Source of the DNA: Chloroflexota bacterium
GTDB taxonomy: Bacteria; Chloroflexota; UBA11872; VXOZ01
DNA: 62,649 nucleotides
Direction of reading: 5' to 3'
Assembly (NCBI GenBank): GCA_028874195.1
Contig: JAPPLM010000078.1
Coordinates: forward strand, 1 to 62,649
Shown here one piece after another: positions 4,885 to 49,034 of the stretch. The notes beneath the pieces are model-generated. The model ran no database searches, was not told where the DNA came from, and saw only the letters and a program-made list of their open reading frames with translations. The translations under genes were made by a program, and so were the position numbers. Positions within the stretch are counted from its first letter, which is position 1; each line of letters opens with the position of its first letter.

Positions 4885-5631
4885 TCAAACGCGCAAGCAC
4901 TGCTGTTCTCGCTCATATGCTTCAAGCACATGCAGGAAGAGACGTAACGACTCCACGGCAAACTGGTGCTGGTTCGCAGTCCGACCAGCATCAGCGAATT
5001 CGTGGGTGACTGTCCACAGAGACTCCCGGCCGGAATCTAAGGTCGCCATAATTGTGCCGTTGCCGTCTAATTCGTCCACGCTTCTCTCTGTGCCCCCAAG
5101 CTCTTCTGTAGCGCGGGGGCTTGCCCCCCGCTCTTTTGCGGGTGCTCTCCTTCCACTCGAACCAACCACGGCGAGGCAAACCATGCCCACCGGCTTGGCT
5201 GAGCGGCGCCCGGTTTGCGGACCGGCAATGCCGCTCTCCGCCAACGCCCAGTCACACGCGAACGTACGCTTCACCAATTCCGCCAGCGCTGCCGAATACT
5301 CCTCGCTCACCACACCGTGGGCACGCGCCACACTGCGAATGCTCTGCGCGAGCGGAATATCACTCCCGGCGTACAGCACCATGCCGCCAAGAAACCACGA
5401 TTCACTCCTCGGCACGGCGGGGATAAGCGAAGCGAGCGCACCACCAGCGGAAGTCTCTCCCACGGCAAGCGTATGTCCCTGCCTCGCCAGCAGTATGCCA
5501 ATCTGTTCAACAAGCTGCCGCACCTCGTGATCGAGGCTGGGAGCAATCGCTCGCTGCTCCACTCCGGCACCCGGTGGCCTGCTTGAAGAAGATCTTGTGA
5601 GATTACTTTGCAAGGGTGCGTTCATCGCCAT
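4885..5631 (-). CDS. pncC: CinA C-terminal domain / nicotinamide-nucleotide amidase, with repeat-derived insert
   Basis: Protein of 248 aa related to PncC/CinA-C, which deamidates NMN to nicotinic acid mononucleotide in pyridine nucleotide recycling. Family motifs are visible: TLAVGETSAGGALASLI (residues about 55-70), then WFLGGMVLYA, VSEEYSAALAE, and ALAESGIAGP with the expected Ser-Gly. The usual domain is about 160 aa. Here an extra stretch of about 45 residues (PAKERGASPRATEE and beyond) separates GMVCLAVVGS from the last strand. That insert includes the translation of an interspersed palindromic repeat at 5108-5132. The gene start overlaps the selB stop by about 29 bases, so the two are co-transcribed. 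Start could also be ATG 5625. Confidence 0.82.
   Translation of the reverse strand: MAMNAPLQSNLTRSSSSRPPGAGVEQRAIAPSLDHEVRQLVEQIGILLARQGHTLAVGETSAGGALASLIPAVPRSESWFLGGMVLYAGSDIPLAQSIRSVARAHGVVSEEYSAALAELVKRTFACDWALAESGIAGPQTGRRSAKPVGMVCLAVVGSSGRRAPAKERGASPRATEELGGTERSVDELDGNGTIMATLDSGRESLWTVTHEFADAGRTANQHQFAVESLRLFLHVLEAYEREQQCLRV
5108..5132 (-). repeat. Palindromic repeat (family D) inside the pncC reading frame
   Basis: The minus strand reads GCGGGGGGCAAGCCCCCGCG followed by CTAC. An almost identical sequence is intergenic at 11794-11817, and a decayed copy lies at 11831-11855. Here it is translated in frame within pncC. Confidence 0.75.
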
Positions 5632-7474
5632 CACGCAGGGTTATGCCGTCGCGGTCCATCTGCTCCAGGAGCGGCAGCACATACTTCCGGCTCGTGCCAA
5701 AGACGTCGCGGACCTGTGCTACCGTTACCCGCTCTTCGCGGGCCAGGAGTTCCCGCACTTTCTCCACCGCCTGCTCGTATGCCTGGCGCGAGTAGATGAG
5801 ATCGGTGTCCACCTGGATTATCCTGCCCTGCTCCACCAGCACATTCAAGAAGTCGTCGTCCACCGCAAGCTCTTCGCGAATGTCGCTCAAACTCGGTGGC
5901 GCTAGCGGCTCTCGTTCCAGCAATGCGAGCAGTGTCGCTGCGGCCTCCTCTTGCGTCGGGCTCAGTTCAATGCGAAAGTCGAACGCGCGCAAAGCGCCTT
6001 CTCTTTCGGCGATCACTTCATCGGCGCAAAGCCGCTGCACTATCTCGTTGAAAATTCGGCTTTCCAGGCCCAGGCTTCGCCGCACCTCCTCCTTGCCCTG
6101 CCCGTTGCGCAGCGGGTAACGCGCGTGGAACTGCTCGAGCTGAGAGGTTACACGTTCCGTTATGCTGGCCCAGCCTCCAGCGGAGTACAGGCAGCGCCCC
6201 AGATCTATCACCTGCTCCGCTCCCATGAGCCTCGCCAGGACTTCCTCTACCTCCACAACGGTAAGCGGCAGTACTCCAGTGACTTCCTGCTGTGTGCAGG
6301 GTTCCCGTTGCCGGATGGCCTGGAGCACCACGTCTGCCGGCGAGCCGCGCTCCAGGGTCTCCAGCGCCGAAACTACGTCAGCGGCAAAGCGTTTGTGGCG
6401 CGGCGGATAGGGGTCGAGGACCTCGCCCCCGCCAAGCGTCACCGCCGGACTCAGTTGGCGGACAATGAAAAGGTCGCCCTTGATCAAGCTCACCGGCTTA
6501 ATCAGTAACAGTTGCGCCAGCCCTTCTTCACCCGGCGGGATTTCCTCGCGGTCGAGCAGCCGCACGCGGGCAAGCGTCTCCATCGTCCCGCTATGCAGCG
6601 TCACCACCATCCCGTGCTCGAGCGGCCGCGGCGCGGAGGGCAAGAGCCGGATGCGCACGTCGGCAAAGCGGGTCGCCTGCAGCATGCGCGGTAAGCTGAG
6701 CACCTGACCCCGATAGATGTCCTCTACGTCAACCCCGCCAACGTTCACCGCAACACGGTTTCCCGGCAGCGCGGTCTCGATCTTGTGTTTGTGGCTCTGC
6801 AGGCCGCGAATGCGGCCGCTCACGTTACCAGGGACGATTTCCACTTCATTTCCCACGCGAAGTTGGCCGTCGAGCAGGGTGCCTGTGACCACGGTGCCGA
6901 AGCCGGTGAGCGTAAAGGCCCGGTCGATGGGTAGTCGCGGACGCCCCACGTCACGCTTCGCTGCCGTGTCCGCGAGCAATGTGTCGAGCGCCGCGCGTAA
7001 GTCATCCAGACCCTCGCCCCTAAGGGAAGAGACACGCACGAGCGGGCTTTGGGCCAGGACCGTTCCCGCCACAGTTTCCCGTACGTCTTCTTCGACAAGT
7101 TCTAACCAATCCTCATCCTCAACGAGATCGCATCGCGTGAGCACGAGAATGCCCGCCGGAACGCGCAGAAGATCGAGGATATCCAAGTGCTCGCGCGTCT
7201 GCGGCATGACTCCCTCATCCGCCGCAATGACGAGCAGCGCCGCGTCGATGCCGCCAACACCCGCCAGCATGTTCTTGATGAACCGCTCATGGCCGGGCAC
7301 GTCAACAATCGAGATCTCTTTGCCGCTGGGCAAGGTGAGCCACGCAAAGCCGAGATCGATGGTCAGCCCGCGCTCTTTCTCTTCACGCAGCCTGTCCGGA
7401 TCAATGCCGGTGAGCGCCTGAATCAGCGTCGACTTGCCGTGGTCGACGTGCCCAGCGGTGCCAATGGTGTACAT
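5603..7474 (-). CDS. selB: Selenocysteine-specific elongation factor SelB
   Basis: GTPase of 623 aa (E. coli SelB is 614) that carries Sec-tRNA(Sec) to UGA codons marked by a SECIS hairpin. G1 is GHVDHGKST (residues about 8-16), G3 is [12 protein letters not shown], both typical of SelB. EF-Tu-like domains II and III follow ([17 protein letters not shown]). The C-terminal third forms the winged-helix region that binds the SECIS RNA. The ATG at 7474 starts exactly at the family N-terminus ([13 protein letters not shown]); the longer frame is ignored. The pncC gene follows with overlap. It provides context for the two UGA-containing genes at 15.3-16.9 kb. selA, selD and selC were not seen in the window. 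Confidence 0.97.
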
Positions 7475-7683
7475 TCGCAGACCTCTACACAACTGAGGTG
7501 CGGTCTAGAGCGCGCCAGCGCACCTATGCAATCCAATATACCTTGCCCGGCCTGCCACGACGTTAGCCAAAGGGCTATTCGCCGCTACACGGTGACGCAA
7601 ATTCCTTCCAGTCGGACTTACCCTTTCACAGAATGGTGTGCGGATACATCCATTGAAGGAGAAGGGGCTAGAAGAGCGTTTAC

Positions 7684-14316: not shown

Positions 14317-15069
14317 ATGTTGGTTGATGTAGGCATCGCATTTGCCGCCGGCGTTCTATCTTTTCTGTCGCCTTGCTTCCTTCCCTTGATTCCCGCGTAT
14401 CTCGTCTATCTCGGCGGCCGCCACGTAAATGCGGTGCGCAACGAGACCTCCGCCCGGCGTGCGGTCTTCATCAACGCGATCGCCTTCGTTCTCGGCTTTG
14501 GAGTGATCTTCGTCGCTCTCGGCGTTGCCATCACCTTTGTAGGCCTCGCGTTTCAGCAAGGCCTGCCCACAATGCGGCTCGTCGGCGGCGGGTTGCTCGT
14601 CATCTTCGGACTGAGCTTTCTCGGCTTGCTACGCATTCCATGGCTGCAGCAGATATTACAGCGCGAAGTCTCGCTCCGCAACACCCCATTGGGCCGCATC
14701 GACACCGAAAAGACCGGTCCTGTCACCTCATTTCTGATTGGTCTTGTGTTTGGCACTGGCTGGACTCCGTGTGTAGGGCCCATTCTTGGCGCCATATTGT
14801 TGCAGGCTTCCGGCTCTGACACTGTGGTTCGTGGTGGCATTCTCCTGGCGATCTACGCGTTGGGTATGGGAATTCCATTTCTCGCGATGGCCGCCGCTGT
14901 CGAACGTGCCGCCTCCCTCTTGAACTGGCTTAAGGCCCACATGCTGGTTGTGGAACGCACGAGTGGCGTCTTCTTGATTTTGATGGGTATTGCCGTAGCC
15001 ACGAATTTCCTGGCGATGATTTCCGGCGTGCTTGGCTTCTTCTCATTGGAGATATTGGCGTTCGAATGA
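14317..15069 (+). CDS. ccdA: CcdA/DsbD-family transmembrane thiol electron carrier
   Basis: Polytopic membrane protein of 250 aa with about six helices. CcdA proteins pass electrons from cytosolic thioredoxin to extracytoplasmic thiol proteins through two membrane cysteines. Both are present: SFLSPCFLPLIPAYLVYLGG in helix 1 and GLVFGTGWTPCVGPILGAIL in helix 4. The first selenothioredoxin gene begins 209 bases downstream on the same strand, so CcdA is the obvious electron donor for both anchored UxxC proteins; that link is inference from position and known CcdA-TlpA/ResA partnerships. Confidence 0.93.
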   Translation: MLVDVGIAFAAGVLSFLSPCFLPLIPAYLVYLGGRHVNAVRNETSARRAVFINAIAFVLGFGVIFVALGVAITFVGLAFQQGLPTMRLVGGGLLVIFGLSFLGLLRIPWLQQILQREVSLRNTPLGRIDTEKTGPVTSFLIGLVFGTGWTPCVGPILGAILLQASGSDTVVRGGILLAIYALGMGIPFLAMAAAVERAASLLNWLKAHMLVVERTSGVFLILMGIAVATNFLAMISGVLGFFSLEILAFE

Positions 15070-15278
15070 TAGGAGCCAAGGTTGCAAAGAAAAGGCCGCC
15101 TTTGCAGTTCGTTAACAGTTGTCCGCTAAGCTGGCTCGCGAGGATTATTCGGCATAGTCCGATCTGAAGGAATCGTTAGGACTCGATATCAGTCATGGTT
15201 TGGCGCTGGCGAATTTAGAGCTAGGCAAGACTAAGAGCTGTGGGGATTGTGTGAAACAACAGTAAGGAGAAGAGCACG

Positions 15279-15944
15279 ATGCGACGTCGATCTGTTTGTA
15301 CGCTGCTGCTAAGCGGCGCGTCCATGGCCGCGCTCGCGGCCTGTGGTGGTGGCTCGACGCTGATCGATACGAAGGAGGAGCCCGCGCCCGCAAAGGAAGA
15401 GGCGAAGGCGGAACCAACCGCCGCCCCCAAGGAAGCCCAGCCGACGGCTGAGCCTGAAGCGAAGGCAGAACCTGAGCCGACGGCAGCACCCGAGCTCGAC
15501 CTGCCCAACCTTGGCAAGGCGCCGGAGATTACGCTTACGGAGTGGCTCAACTCGGAGCCCATCACCCTGGCGAGCCTGGAGGGCAAGGCCTCTGCGCTCA
15601 TCGTCTTCTGGACCTACACCTGACCGGTGTGCCGCGGCGAAGTCCCCAGTTGGGTGGACATCCAGAACACGCTCGTTGACGACAGCTTCAAGCTCATCAG
15701 CATCCACTTTCCGGCCTTGGGCGCGTCCACGGACGTGAGCGTCATTGCCGAGAAGTCTGCGGAACTCAGTGTCAATTTCCCGGTCGCGATTGACAACGAC
15801 CTGTCAGCCTGGAACGACTACGGCAACAATGCCTGGCCGGTTGCCTATGCAGTCGATAAAGAAGGGAACATCCGCTTCAAGCAAGTTGGTGCCGGAATCG
15901 ATTCTATCCTCGAAGTGATCGGAAAACTCAAGGCTGCGGGCTAG
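15279..15944 (+). CDS. Lipoprotein thioredoxin, selenocysteine-containing (UxxC)
   Basis: Full-length product 221 aa if the UGA at 15621-15623 is read as selenocysteine. Residues 1-22 are a lipoprotein signal (MRRRSVC...LAAC). About 50 residues of Ala/Glu/Lys/Pro linker follow. A TlpA/ResA-like thioredoxin domain then shows FWTYT-U-PVCRGEVPSW, i.e. Sec115 and Cys118 in place of CxxC, and the cis-proline NAWPVAYAVDKEGNIRF. The frame stays open and conserved for 107 codons after the UGA, ends in TAG, and aligns along its length with the paralogue at 16231-16902. GGAG lies 9 bases before the ATG. selB is in the window. Expected location is outside the membrane; likely a disulfide or peroxide reductase fed by CcdA. 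Confidence 0.9.
15642..15659 (+). promoter_or_regulatory. Candidate bacterial SECIS hairpin, selenoprotein 1
   Basis: GTCCCCAGTTGGGTGGAC begins 18 bases after the UGA. It folds as GUCC/GGAC, a bulged U, CC/GG, and a five-base loop AGUUG containing GU. Position and size fit bacterial SECIS elements. The copy at 16519-16536 has the same fold with the outer G-C pair changed to A-U. Confidence 0.7.
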
Positions 15945-15982
15945 CATACCTGCCGGCGTTGAGACATCGGTCGAGAAAATTG

Positions 15983-16023
15983 AACCGTCTGCGGTGTGCA
16001 CGTTGCATCGCAGACGGTTTTCC
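15983..16023 (+). terminator. Terminator of selenoprotein 1
   Basis: AACCGTCTGCG pairs perfectly with CGCAGACGGTT (11 bp, 15-base loop) followed by TTCCTTT, starting 39 bases after the stop codon. Confidence 0.85.
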
Positions 16024-16230: not shown

Positions 16231-16902
16231 TTAGCCCAATTCCTTGAGCTGCTTCACGGCTTCGACCACTAGCTCAAAACTGCCGCCGCCGAACTTTGCA
16301 AAGCGGATATTGCCCTGTCGATCAATGCCGTAAAAGGCCGGCCACGTGCGGGTGCCGTAGGCATTCCAGAGCAACAAATCGTTGTCTACAACCACCGGAT
16401 AGTTTACACCGAGTGCGTCGGCACGCTCCTGGATTCCACTGATGTCTCTGGAAGAACCGGCATGCGGAAAGTGCACGCTAATCAACTTGAATCGATCATC
16501 GTGGTACGTATTGAAGAGATCCACCAAACTGGGGATTTCGCTACGGCAAACCGGTCAGGTGTACGTCCAGAAGACAATGAGAGCAGAGGCCTTGCCCTCC
16601 AGGCTCGCCATGGTGATGGGCTCAGAGTTGAACCAACCGGTGAGCGTAATCTCGGGTGCCTTGCCGAGATTTGGCATATCGAGCTCGGGTGCCGCCGTGG
16701 GTTCAGCCTCTGCCTTCTTTTCAGGCTCAGCCGTCGGTTCGGCCTCCTTCGGAGCGGCGGTTGGTTCGGCCTTCGCCTCTTCCTTCGCGGGTGCGGGCTC
16801 CTCTTTCTCAGTTTCAATCAGCGTCGAACCACCGCCGCACGCTGCGAGCGCGGCTGCGGACGTGCCGCTGAGCAGAAGGGAACAAACAGATCGTCGTCGC
16901 AT
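16231..16902 (-). CDS. Lipoprotein thioredoxin, selenocysteine-containing (UxxC), paralogue
   Basis: Product of 223 aa with UGA at 16555-16557 read as Sec116; Cys119 completes the UxxC motif in FWTYT-U-PVCRSEIPSL. It has the same plan as the preceding gene: signal MRRRSVC...LAAC, acidic/basic Ala-Pro linker, then a TlpA-like domain with TRTWPAFYGIDRQGNIRF carrying the cis-proline. The ATG at 16902 has GGAG nine bases upstream, exactly as in the paralogue; a TTG at 16917 is less likely. The two genes face each other tail to tail, each with its own terminator, which suggests an inverted duplication. The downstream halves have diverged more than the N-terminal halves but both stay open, arguing against decay at the UGA. 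Confidence 0.9.
16519..16536 (-). promoter_or_regulatory. Candidate bacterial SECIS hairpin, selenoprotein 2
   Basis: Minus-strand ATCCCCAGTTTGGTGGAT begins 18 bases after the UGA and forms AUCC/GGAU, a bulged U, CC/GG and a loop AGUUU. Compared with the first copy the outer pair covaries (G-C to A-U) while the loop AGUU is unchanged. Confidence 0.7.
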
Positions 16903-26326: not shown

Positions 26327-27115
26327 CTAGCTACTCGCGCTGGAGTATTTCGTCAGCGCCAGTTGCCAGAAGAGGTGGGAGATGGTGAGGAGCCCCGCGG
26401 TCATGGCGACAGCGGCAAAGGCGAAGGTGGGGCTGAGGAGGCCCAGGAGCGCTTGGCTGGGGACCGTGGCGATGAAGGCTACCGGCAGTAGGAACGTCAG
26501 GCCCAGGCGGAGCGCGCCGCGAAAGACGTCGGTGGGCACGCGGGAAGCCTCGATGAGGTTGTAGTAGAGGTTGCCCACGTTGTTGAGGCGCCCCACGAAA
26601 AACGTCGCCGAAATGATGATAAACCACAGCGAATAGGCAATGAGGCACGCGCACACCACCATCCCCAGGTAGAGGAGTGCGCCGTACCACGGCACCGGCT
26701 CCGCCAGCAGGCTGACCGCGTACCACAACACGCCGCCGCCGAGCACCACCTGCACCAGCGGGTCCCAATCAAACTTGCGGGTAGAAACGTAGAAACGTGT
26801 ATTCACCGGCTTGCTGAGCACAAAGTCCAACTCCCCGCGATTGATCAGACCGGAAAGCGCGCTCATGTTCTCGCCAAAGATCGACTCCACGATGCCGTCC
26901 ACGATCATAACCGTAGCCGCCAGCACGAGCATATGCTCCACGCGCCAGCCGCCAATCGTCTGCACGTGGTTGAAGATGATCTGGATTGAGGCCACGTAGA
27001 CTGCGGTATAGCAGATGGTCGCGATGCTCCAAACCGTGAAGCTCAGCCGGTATTCCAGCGCATTGAGAAACGAGTTCTTGGCAAAAGCCAGGTAGAGTCG
27101 CACGTAGCGTTGCAT
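26327..27115 (-). CDS. ABC-2 family transporter permease (second subunit)
   Basis: Membrane protein of 262 aa with about six helices, related to the COG3694-type ABC-2 permeases (N-terminus MQRYVRLYLAFAKNSFLNALEYRLSF is typical). It follows the first permease by only 3 bases and completes an exporter with the ATPase upstream. Substrate unknown; these systems are linked to export of drugs, lipids or polymers. Confidence 0.88.
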   Translation of the reverse strand: MQRYVRLYLAFAKNSFLNALEYRLSFTVWSIATICYTAVYVASIQIIFNHVQTIGGWRVEHMLVLAATVMIVDGIVESIFGENMSALSGLINRGELDFVLSKPVNTRFYVSTRKFDWDPLVQVVLGGGVLWYAVSLLAEPVPWYGALLYLGMVVCACLIAYSLWFIIISATFFVGRLNNVGNLYYNLIEASRVPTDVFRGALRLGLTFLLPVAFIATVPSQALLGLLSPTFAFAAVAMTAGLLTISHLFWQLALTKYSSASS

Positions 27116-27118
27116 CGG

Positions 27119-27931
27119 CTAGCCTCCGTAAGCGCCGTAGCGGCGCACGCCGGCGGCAAACACCCACTGCACGAGCAGGTAGCACACCAGCAGCCATCCC
27201 GCCTGTATGGCCAGCCCCGCAAGAGCAGCCGAGAAGTCTAGCCGGCCCTGCAGCAACTGCACTGGGAAGAAGTAAAGGTAGCGCCACGGTAGGAAGTGCG
27301 TCATGCGTTCCACCGCCGCCGGCATGAGATCCAAGGGGATGATGCTCCCGGCAAGGAACATCGTGACTACCGCGTATGATTCGATGATCCCGTCCGTCTG
27401 GCCTACCCAGAACGCCAAGAGTCCCAGGCACAGCTTGAGACAGTAGTTCAGCAAGAACGATAAGACCATGCTGGCCAGTAGAATCGGCGCGATTTCCCAC
27501 CTGAGCGCAAAGCCGCCGAGCATCTCCTGCCCAAACAGCAGAATGAAGAGCAGCAGCATTGGCACAAGAAAGGCCACCCGCACGCCCTTGAACGCGACCT
27601 CTACCGCAAGCTGCCACAGTTGATAGGGAAACGGGCGCACAAGATGCGCGGAAAAGGCGCCGCTGCGGATAAATCCGCCCGTGTTCCACTCCAGATGCGG
27701 CGTCAGCAAGTTGCTCAACACCAGGAACATGACGTAGTAGTTCACCATGTCCTGCACGGTGTACTCGCCGACACGGTCTACGTTGCGGTACGCCGCCAGC
27801 CAAAGGGCGATCATGATGAGCGGGATGATCGCCTCGCCGATGAACCAGACGAGACTCTCGGCGCGATATATCAAGGACTCTTGCCAGGAGGCCAGGAAGA
27901 CCGCGCGTAGCTTACGAAGCGACTTCAGCAT
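27119..27931 (-). CDS. ABC-2 family transporter permease (first subunit)
   Basis: Membrane protein of 270 aa from ATG 27931, related to COG4587-type permeases. The N-terminus LRKLRAVFLASWQESLIYRAE is followed by about six hydrophobic segments. Its start overlaps the 3' end of the ATPase gene by 20 bases, indicating coupled translation. Confidence 0.88.
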   Translation of the reverse strand: MLKSLRKLRAVFLASWQESLIYRAESLVWFIGEAIIPLIMIALWLAAYRNVDRVGEYTVQDMVNYYVMFLVLSNLLTPHLEWNTGGFIRSGAFSAHLVRPFPYQLWQLAVEVAFKGVRVAFLVPMLLLFILLFGQEMLGGFALRWEIAPILLASMVLSFLLNYCLKLCLGLLAFWVGQTDGIIESYAVVTMFLAGSIIPLDLMPAAVERMTHFLPWRYLYFFPVQLLQGRLDFSAALAGLAIQAGWLLVCYLLVQWVFAAGVRRYGAYGG

Positions 27932-47976: not shown

Positions 47977-48083
47977 AAGCACTCAGCAGTCCTGTAATTC
48001 TGTGAGCGCAGTCAACTGAAATAGGCCAGCGCAACAAGCTAACGCTCATATACGGCCAGAGTTTGAAGGGTACACATTTAGGT

Positions 48084-49034
48084 ATGGCACGCATCGTCTC
48101 GCTCCTGCCCAGCGCCACGGAGATTGTCTGCGCGCTTGGCGCGGGAGATGACCTCGTGGGACGCTCGCATGAGTGTGACTTCCCGCCCGGCGTCGAGCGC
48201 CTGCCCGCGCTCACCCGACCGCGCTTCTTTCCCGCCGCCAGCAGCAGGGAAATCGACCGTCAAGTGCGCGCGCTCACGCGCGAGGCCCGCGCCCAGGACG
48301 CGCTGGGTGTTTACGCTATCGATATCGAGCTCTTGCAGCGCCTGCGGCCAACGCACATCATCACGCAGACCCAGTGTGAAGTGTGCGCTGTGAGTTTGCG
48401 GGACGTTGAGAGCGCGGTGTCCCAATTGACCGGCCTAGATACCAAGTTAGTCCCGCTGGAGCCAAATTGCCTCGACGACATTTGGAACGACATTCGCCGG
48501 ACTGCGCAGGCGCTTGATATCAGTGAGCGGGGCGAGGCACTCGTCGCCGAACTTCAGAAACGAATCAACGAGGTATCGGTTACTGAAGAACCTCCCAGAG
48601 CAGCCGTAATCGAGTGGGCCGATCCCCTCATGACTGCCGGCCATTGGACGATGGAATTGATAGAGCGGGCCGGCGGCATACCGCTCATTGGGACCCCGGT
48701 GGGCCCTTCACTGCACTTTACGCTGGACGACTTGAGCAACGCCGATCCGGACATCATCATAATCGCCCCTTGCGGCTATGACCTCGAGCGCACGCGCGTT
48801 GATGCCGATCTCTTGTTTGAAAGTGATGATTGGAAGAGCCTGCGGGCCGTGCGTGCAGGCCGCGTTGCGCTCATTGATGGCAACCAGTTCGTAAACCGGC
48901 CCGGCCCGCGTGTCGTCGAGACTTTGGAAATCATCGCCGAAATCTTGTCCGACCGTGAGGTCTCATTTGGCCACGAAGGACTGCATTGGCAACCATACTT
49001 TGCAAAGTCACTGAGCACTGGAGGAGCACGATGA
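48084..49034 (+). CDS. BtuF-like cobalamin/metal-chelate binding protein, no signal peptide
   Basis: Protein of 316 aa from ATG 48084 (MARIVSLLPSATEIVCALG), the family start; a TTG frame upstream adds nothing plausible. SHECDFPP, TQTQCEVCAVS and DPDIIIIAPCGYDLERT match the cytosolic 'cobalamin-binding' branch of the BtuF/FhuD fold. No export signal or lipobox is visible, as is usual for this branch. The enolase-superfamily gene overlaps its stop (ATGA). A direct link between the two is not obvious. Confidence 0.85.
   Translation: MARIVSLLPSATEIVCALGAGDDLVGRSHECDFPPGVERLPALTRPRFFPAASSREIDRQVRALTREARAQDALGVYAIDIELLQRLRPTHIITQTQCEVCAVSLRDVESAVSQLTGLDTKLVPLEPNCLDDIWNDIRRTAQALDISERGEALVAELQKRINEVSVTEEPPRAAVIEWADPLMTAGHWTMELIERAGGIPLIGTPVGPSLHFTLDDLSNADPDIIIIAPCGYDLERTRVDADLLFESDDWKSLRAVRAGRVALIDGNQFVNRPGPRVVETLEIIAEILSDREVSFGHEGLHWQPYFAKSLSTGGAR

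Follow-up and report, generated by a model that had tools for sequence, protein, structure and literature searches.

A selenocysteine codon predicted at the active site of a DipZ-type thioredoxin lipoprotein encoded beside ccdA in a Chloroflexota bacterium

The gene at positions 15279–15944 (+ strand) of the analysed window, the whole 62,649-nucleotide stretch of contig JAPPLM010000078.1 from a Chloroflexota bacterium, raises two questions: is the UGA in its frame a stop or a selenocysteine (Sec) codon, and what would the full-length protein do? This frame, gene A, has a Shine-Dalgarno sequence AAGGAG (15264–15269, +), begins with ATG and ends with TAG. Our re-reading agrees with a preliminary description of the locus that its sole internal stop is the UGA at 15621–15623 (+). 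Read through this codon, gene A encodes 221 residues, comprising an n-region MRRRS, a hydrophobic part, a lipobox LAAC, an Ala/Glu/Pro-rich linker of about 50 residues and a thioredoxin-fold domain. The UGA is codon 115 in the motif FWTYT-U-PV-C and falls in the alignment column of the leading Cys of CxxC. On the 3' side, the preliminary description had seen a proper terminator. Folding supports it with a 38-nt terminator-like hairpin (15982–16019, +; −26.5 kcal/mol) followed by a short T run, although a consensus terminator scan does not list this hairpin.

Two related copies accompany gene A. Gene B (16231–16902, − strand; 223 residues), absent from that description, is a tail-to-tail paralogue on the opposite strand. 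About 0.9 kb from the UGA of gene A, it has the same in-frame UGA (16555–16557, −) at the same active-site position and the same motif FWTYT-U-PV-C. A third copy, with the motif FWTYG-U-IN-C, lies at 6389–6787 of L084 on another contig of the genome (C30, G000:C30), and its UGA is kept in six of six genomes of the genus searched.

We searched for the family in the source genome and in 400 genomes from the phylum, the near relatives being Chloroflexi/Chloroflexota metagenome-assembled genomes. We inspected 84 distinct family domains at codon level, leaving out three places: G168, G319 and the second copy in G092. The preliminary description had placed the UGA at the attacking Cys of thioredoxins and proposed looking for Cys or UGA at codon 115 of homologues, naming homologues without Cys there as a refutation; exactly Cys or UGA is found, with Cys in 61 domains, UGA in 23 and no other codon in any of the 84. 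Each UGA-bearing domain contains exactly one UGA, always in this column, and within the genus the UGA is kept in all copies found. At least eight switches between Sec and Cys are needed on the tree, in which many forks are unresolved; its starred branches alone force four. Family f10 contains natural Sec and Cys versions that are close relatives, and with them one can ask why selenium is retained outside the membrane.

A true stop, be it through a pseudogene, a sequencing error or two separate proteins, would be a rival reading of the UGA, and a GTG at 15627, just past it, could begin an ORF of 105 residues. Yet other genomes of the genus retain the UGA, both in orthologues and in two more paralogues, and the same-genus orthologues carrying it lead us to reject pseudogene formation and sequencing error. 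Comparison of the same-genus orthologues also shows coding-type conservation on both sides. Upstream of the UGA, 32–44 of 113–114 codons differ at the third position and 3–4 at the second; downstream, the figures are 18–42 and 2–13 of 106 codons. Third-position changes dominate on both sides, which indicates that translation continues past the UGA in the frame of the upstream half. In addition, a split would, judging from the structural model, break the thioredoxin fold right where the active site lies. A true stop is therefore extremely improbable. Standard gene calling nevertheless truncates gene A at the UGA, so that the active site is lost from the gene A/gene B pair; by the same rule, relatives in the genus would lose theirs, as would the third copy.

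For decoding UGA as Sec, the bacterium has the complete pathway. Absence of selA, selD or selC would have spoken against Sec according to the preliminary description, and all three are present together with selB. SelB, the Sec-specific elongation factor, is encoded in the window itself (5603–7492, − strand; 629 residues) and scores 376.9 bits against a profile cut-off of 242.25. SelA (570.6 bits, cut-off 267.9), SelD (380.6 bits, cut-off 125) and a tRNA-Sec with anticodon TCA (score 67.1, cut-off 47) are found in the genome. The selD gene (L021, G000:C63) has its own in-frame UGA in the motif SCAGUAGKLG, which we take to be the usual Sec position of SelD; a second UGA near the end of that frame is presumably its stop. 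Across the phylum, selA accompanies the UGA form in 13 of 13 genomes. This co-occurrence is weak evidence, because 50 of the 61 Cys-form genomes have selA too. A different genetic code is ruled out. Of the 37 long ORFs in the window, 11 have UGA as their ordinary stop, among them ccdA next to gene A, and the recoding must therefore be local, as the preliminary description had argued. Two ORFs that stay open beyond their UGA stop (26769–27803 and 48063–49034) were translated through; their continuations were judged by eye to be chance.

A SECIS-like hairpin follows the UGA of gene A at 15642–15659 (+). It begins after 18 intervening nucleotides, spans +21 to +38 and has the form GUCCCC-AGUUG-GG(U)GGAC, with six pairs and one bulged U. 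Its apical loop AGUUG has G at position 2. The hairpin thus lies close after the UGA and has a G at the beginning of its apical loop, as we ask of a bacterial SECIS element. Gene B has the hairpin AUCCCC...GGUGGAU (16519–16536, −), and the third copy has the same one. All six pairs form in 16 of 16 same-genus Sec sequences, with loops AGUUG or GGUCU and one compensatory pair (A-U in 14, G-C in 2). Five distant Sec members have a second type at the same location, a different hairpin of eight pairs with a G first in its loop (GUU or GGU) and one further compensatory pair. In Cys relatives, 32% of cells at the hairpin position are paired, and of the four Cys forms closest to the distant Sec group, three have a broken hairpin. 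Against synonymous shuffling, Sec forms have a mean z of −1.62 and Cys forms one of 0.03 (Mann-Whitney p = 4e-9, a value too optimistic since it ignores shared ancestry). By itself, the gene A hairpin is moderately stable (−8.7 kcal/mol) and not significant (z = −1.21, p = 0.125). An Rfam scan around the locus with E up to 5 gave chance matches only. One Cys form related to the distant Sec group (L050, 1504–1899, −) keeps the SECIS-like stem with the loop G changed. This is what a recent replacement of Sec by Cys predicts, and from its sequence it looks like one.

These data bear on another reading, in which an unusual tRNA translates the UGA as Cys or another amino acid and selenium plays no part. 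Some bacteria do have Cys tRNAs that read UGA, and the insignificance of the gene A hairpin taken alone would fit with this. The tRNA-Sec and complete Sec pathway, the contrast between Sec forms and close Cys relatives in the hairpin and the normal use of UGA as a stop elsewhere in the window all argue against this reading, which we regard as very unlikely. The in-frame UGA is real, and the bacterium most likely places selenocysteine in the reactive sites of the gene A and gene B products, a decoding predicted here.

The protein read through the UGA belongs to the redoxins. Its best Pfam match is AhpC-TSA (PF00578; 43.6 bits, cut-off 26), followed by the Redoxin group (PF08534; 41.4 bits, cut-off 26.6). 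For PF13905 (cut-off 27), the gene A protein scores 18.3 bits and the gene B protein 28.4 bits. AlphaFold predicts the domain of gene A with pLDDT of about 88–98 in most blocks and a disordered N-terminus, and places U115 between a strand (105–111) and a helix (116–119). A redoxin profile above cut-off combined with UxxC after the first central strand assigns it to the TlpA/ResA/DipZ type. Among solved structures, the thioredoxin domain of Mycobacterium tuberculosis DipZ is nearest both by sequence (2HYX, E 2.6e-21) and by predicted fold (E 2.2e-14). The gene A protein stays below the cut-offs of the ResA subfamily NF002854 (42.3 bits versus 170) and of the ResA-like WAxxUGC family NF041054 (33.7 versus 300). 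As for the lipid anchor, the lipobox LAAC (residues 19–22; 15333–15344, +) was matched by eye in the translation to the pattern [LVI][ASTVI][GAS]C, with residue 22 as the predicted lipidated Cys. It is kept in same-genus A and B copies, and the third copy has LSAC. From this motif the gene A product is predicted to be a lipid-anchored exported protein.

Directly upstream of gene A lies ccdA (14317–15069, +; DsbD_TM, PF02683), a gene that the preliminary description did not mention. Its product has Cys in SPC and TPC motifs. It adjoins gene A upstream in five of five same-genus genomes examined, four of them by tblastn. Beside the third copy and the more remotely related Sec copies, no ccdA was found. 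The source genome has one other DsbD_TM gene only. In DipZ, a CcdA-type membrane domain, a thioredoxin domain and a further C-terminal domain are fused. The M. tuberculosis protein (PDB 2HYX, 5CYY) and the present pair share the thioredoxin domain, the FW-x-Y-x-C-x-x-C column and the CcdA partner. Whereas DipZ is one fusion with Cys, here ccdA is a separate gene, the thioredoxin is a lipoprotein that stops after its thioredoxin domain, and the first Cys is Sec. The pneumococcal Etrx lipoproteins are reportedly linked to CcdA. They are described as thioredoxin lipoproteins of the cell surface whose redox partner is MsrAB2 (PMC3914529). As lipid-anchored TlpA-like thioredoxins with CcdA and extracytoplasmic MsrAB partners, Etrx1 and Etrx2 (PDB 2YP6, 4HQZ) are functional analogues, but they have Cys instead of Sec and are only about 20% identical to the gene A protein in a fold comparison. 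No msrAB was noticed among the ORFs around gene A.

The nearest structure DipZ and the likeness to the Etrx lipoproteins suggest CcdA as the electron carrier to the U115–C118 pair, and the ccdA product is likely the membrane electron donor of the gene A protein. By analogy, the likely role of the latter would be that of an extracytoplasmic thiol reductant fed by CcdA; what points to a reductase is its relation to CcdA and DipZ. A Sec-containing protein could instead be an extracellular oxidase or isomerase (DsbA/DsbC-like) or a Sec peroxidase-type enzyme, with no CcdA-fed reductant involved. DsbA-like and DsbG-like families include UxxC Sec proteins as well (PMC13188914), UPVC has a Pro after the nucleophile while the DipZ-like relatives have CINC/CVNC, and AhpC-TSA is the top Pfam match. 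Set against these points are the ccdA neighbour in every same-genus locus examined and a nearest structure with a CcdA-type membrane half of its own, and we consider an oxidase, isomerase or peroxidase unlikely.

We thus favour, with good confidence, a CcdA-fed reductant of extracytoplasmic thiols: an exported lipoprotein with a Sec UxxC decoded through SECIS and SelB, of which gene B encodes a diverged twin. In the proposed mechanism, SelB carrying Sec-tRNA would bind the hairpin just 3' of the UGA, and the ribosome would put in Sec instead of stopping, giving a thioredoxin-fold lipoprotein with selenocysteine first in the active site U115-P-V-C118. CcdA would then move cytoplasmic electrons across the membrane to the U115–C118 pair. 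The Sec selenolate would attack its extracytoplasmic targets at disulfides or at thiols oxidised in another way, C118 would resolve the mixed selenosulfide, and Sec may speed the reduction of these targets. The gene B protein would probably serve other targets with the same donor. More tentatively, and with considerable doubt, the extracytoplasmic reductive branch of the genus may be largely run on selenium, one CcdA feeding no fewer than two Sec thioredoxin lipoproteins, and perhaps three, whose substrate-facing halves have diverged while the Sec-bearing N-terminal half is shared. If true, this would be a selenium-dependent outer redox relay undescribed before.

The preliminary description had called Sec in a lipid-anchored TlpA-like thioredoxin unusual. 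This is overstated, because such proteins are already catalogued. UxxC thiol-disulfide isomerase/TlpA-like selenoproteins appear in the 2005 Sargasso Sea set (PMC1088965) and in a 2026 inventory (PMC13188914). Like the gene A protein, members of this group (PF13905 or cd02966) have UxxC, a thioredoxin fold and a bacterial SECIS (PMC1088965, PMC13188914, PMC9312934); unlike here, the catalogues of these marine-metagenome proteins mention neither a DipZ-type branch nor CcdA pairing nor a lipoprotein. NCBIfam also holds NF041057, the Rcas_1661 "thioredoxin-like (seleno)lipoprotein". It too is a thioredoxin-like lipoprotein with Sec but a different family, for which the gene A protein scores 15.8 bits against a cut-off of 190 and of which no member was found in the genome. 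In the open-access literature we found no paper joining Sec with DipZ, with TlpA and Chloroflexi, or with CcdA. UxxC Sec itself is known; new here are the DipZ-type branch and the CcdA pairing, which genes A and B add to the list of Sec thioredoxin-fold proteins.

The genome likely encodes another selenoprotein, apparently without a signal peptide, in which a redoxin domain with WASW-U-RC is followed by TPR-like repeats (L085, G000:C25; L030:1489–2436).

Genes A and B are unevenly similar along their length. Through the UGA region (15279–15650 versus 16902–16530) they are 91% identical in amino acids and 85% in nucleotides, and after the UGA 50% and 59%, respectively. In this genome the two N-terminal halves resemble each other more closely than gene B resembles A copies from most of the other genomes, a pattern that suggests gene conversion between the two genes, ending near the Sec codon.
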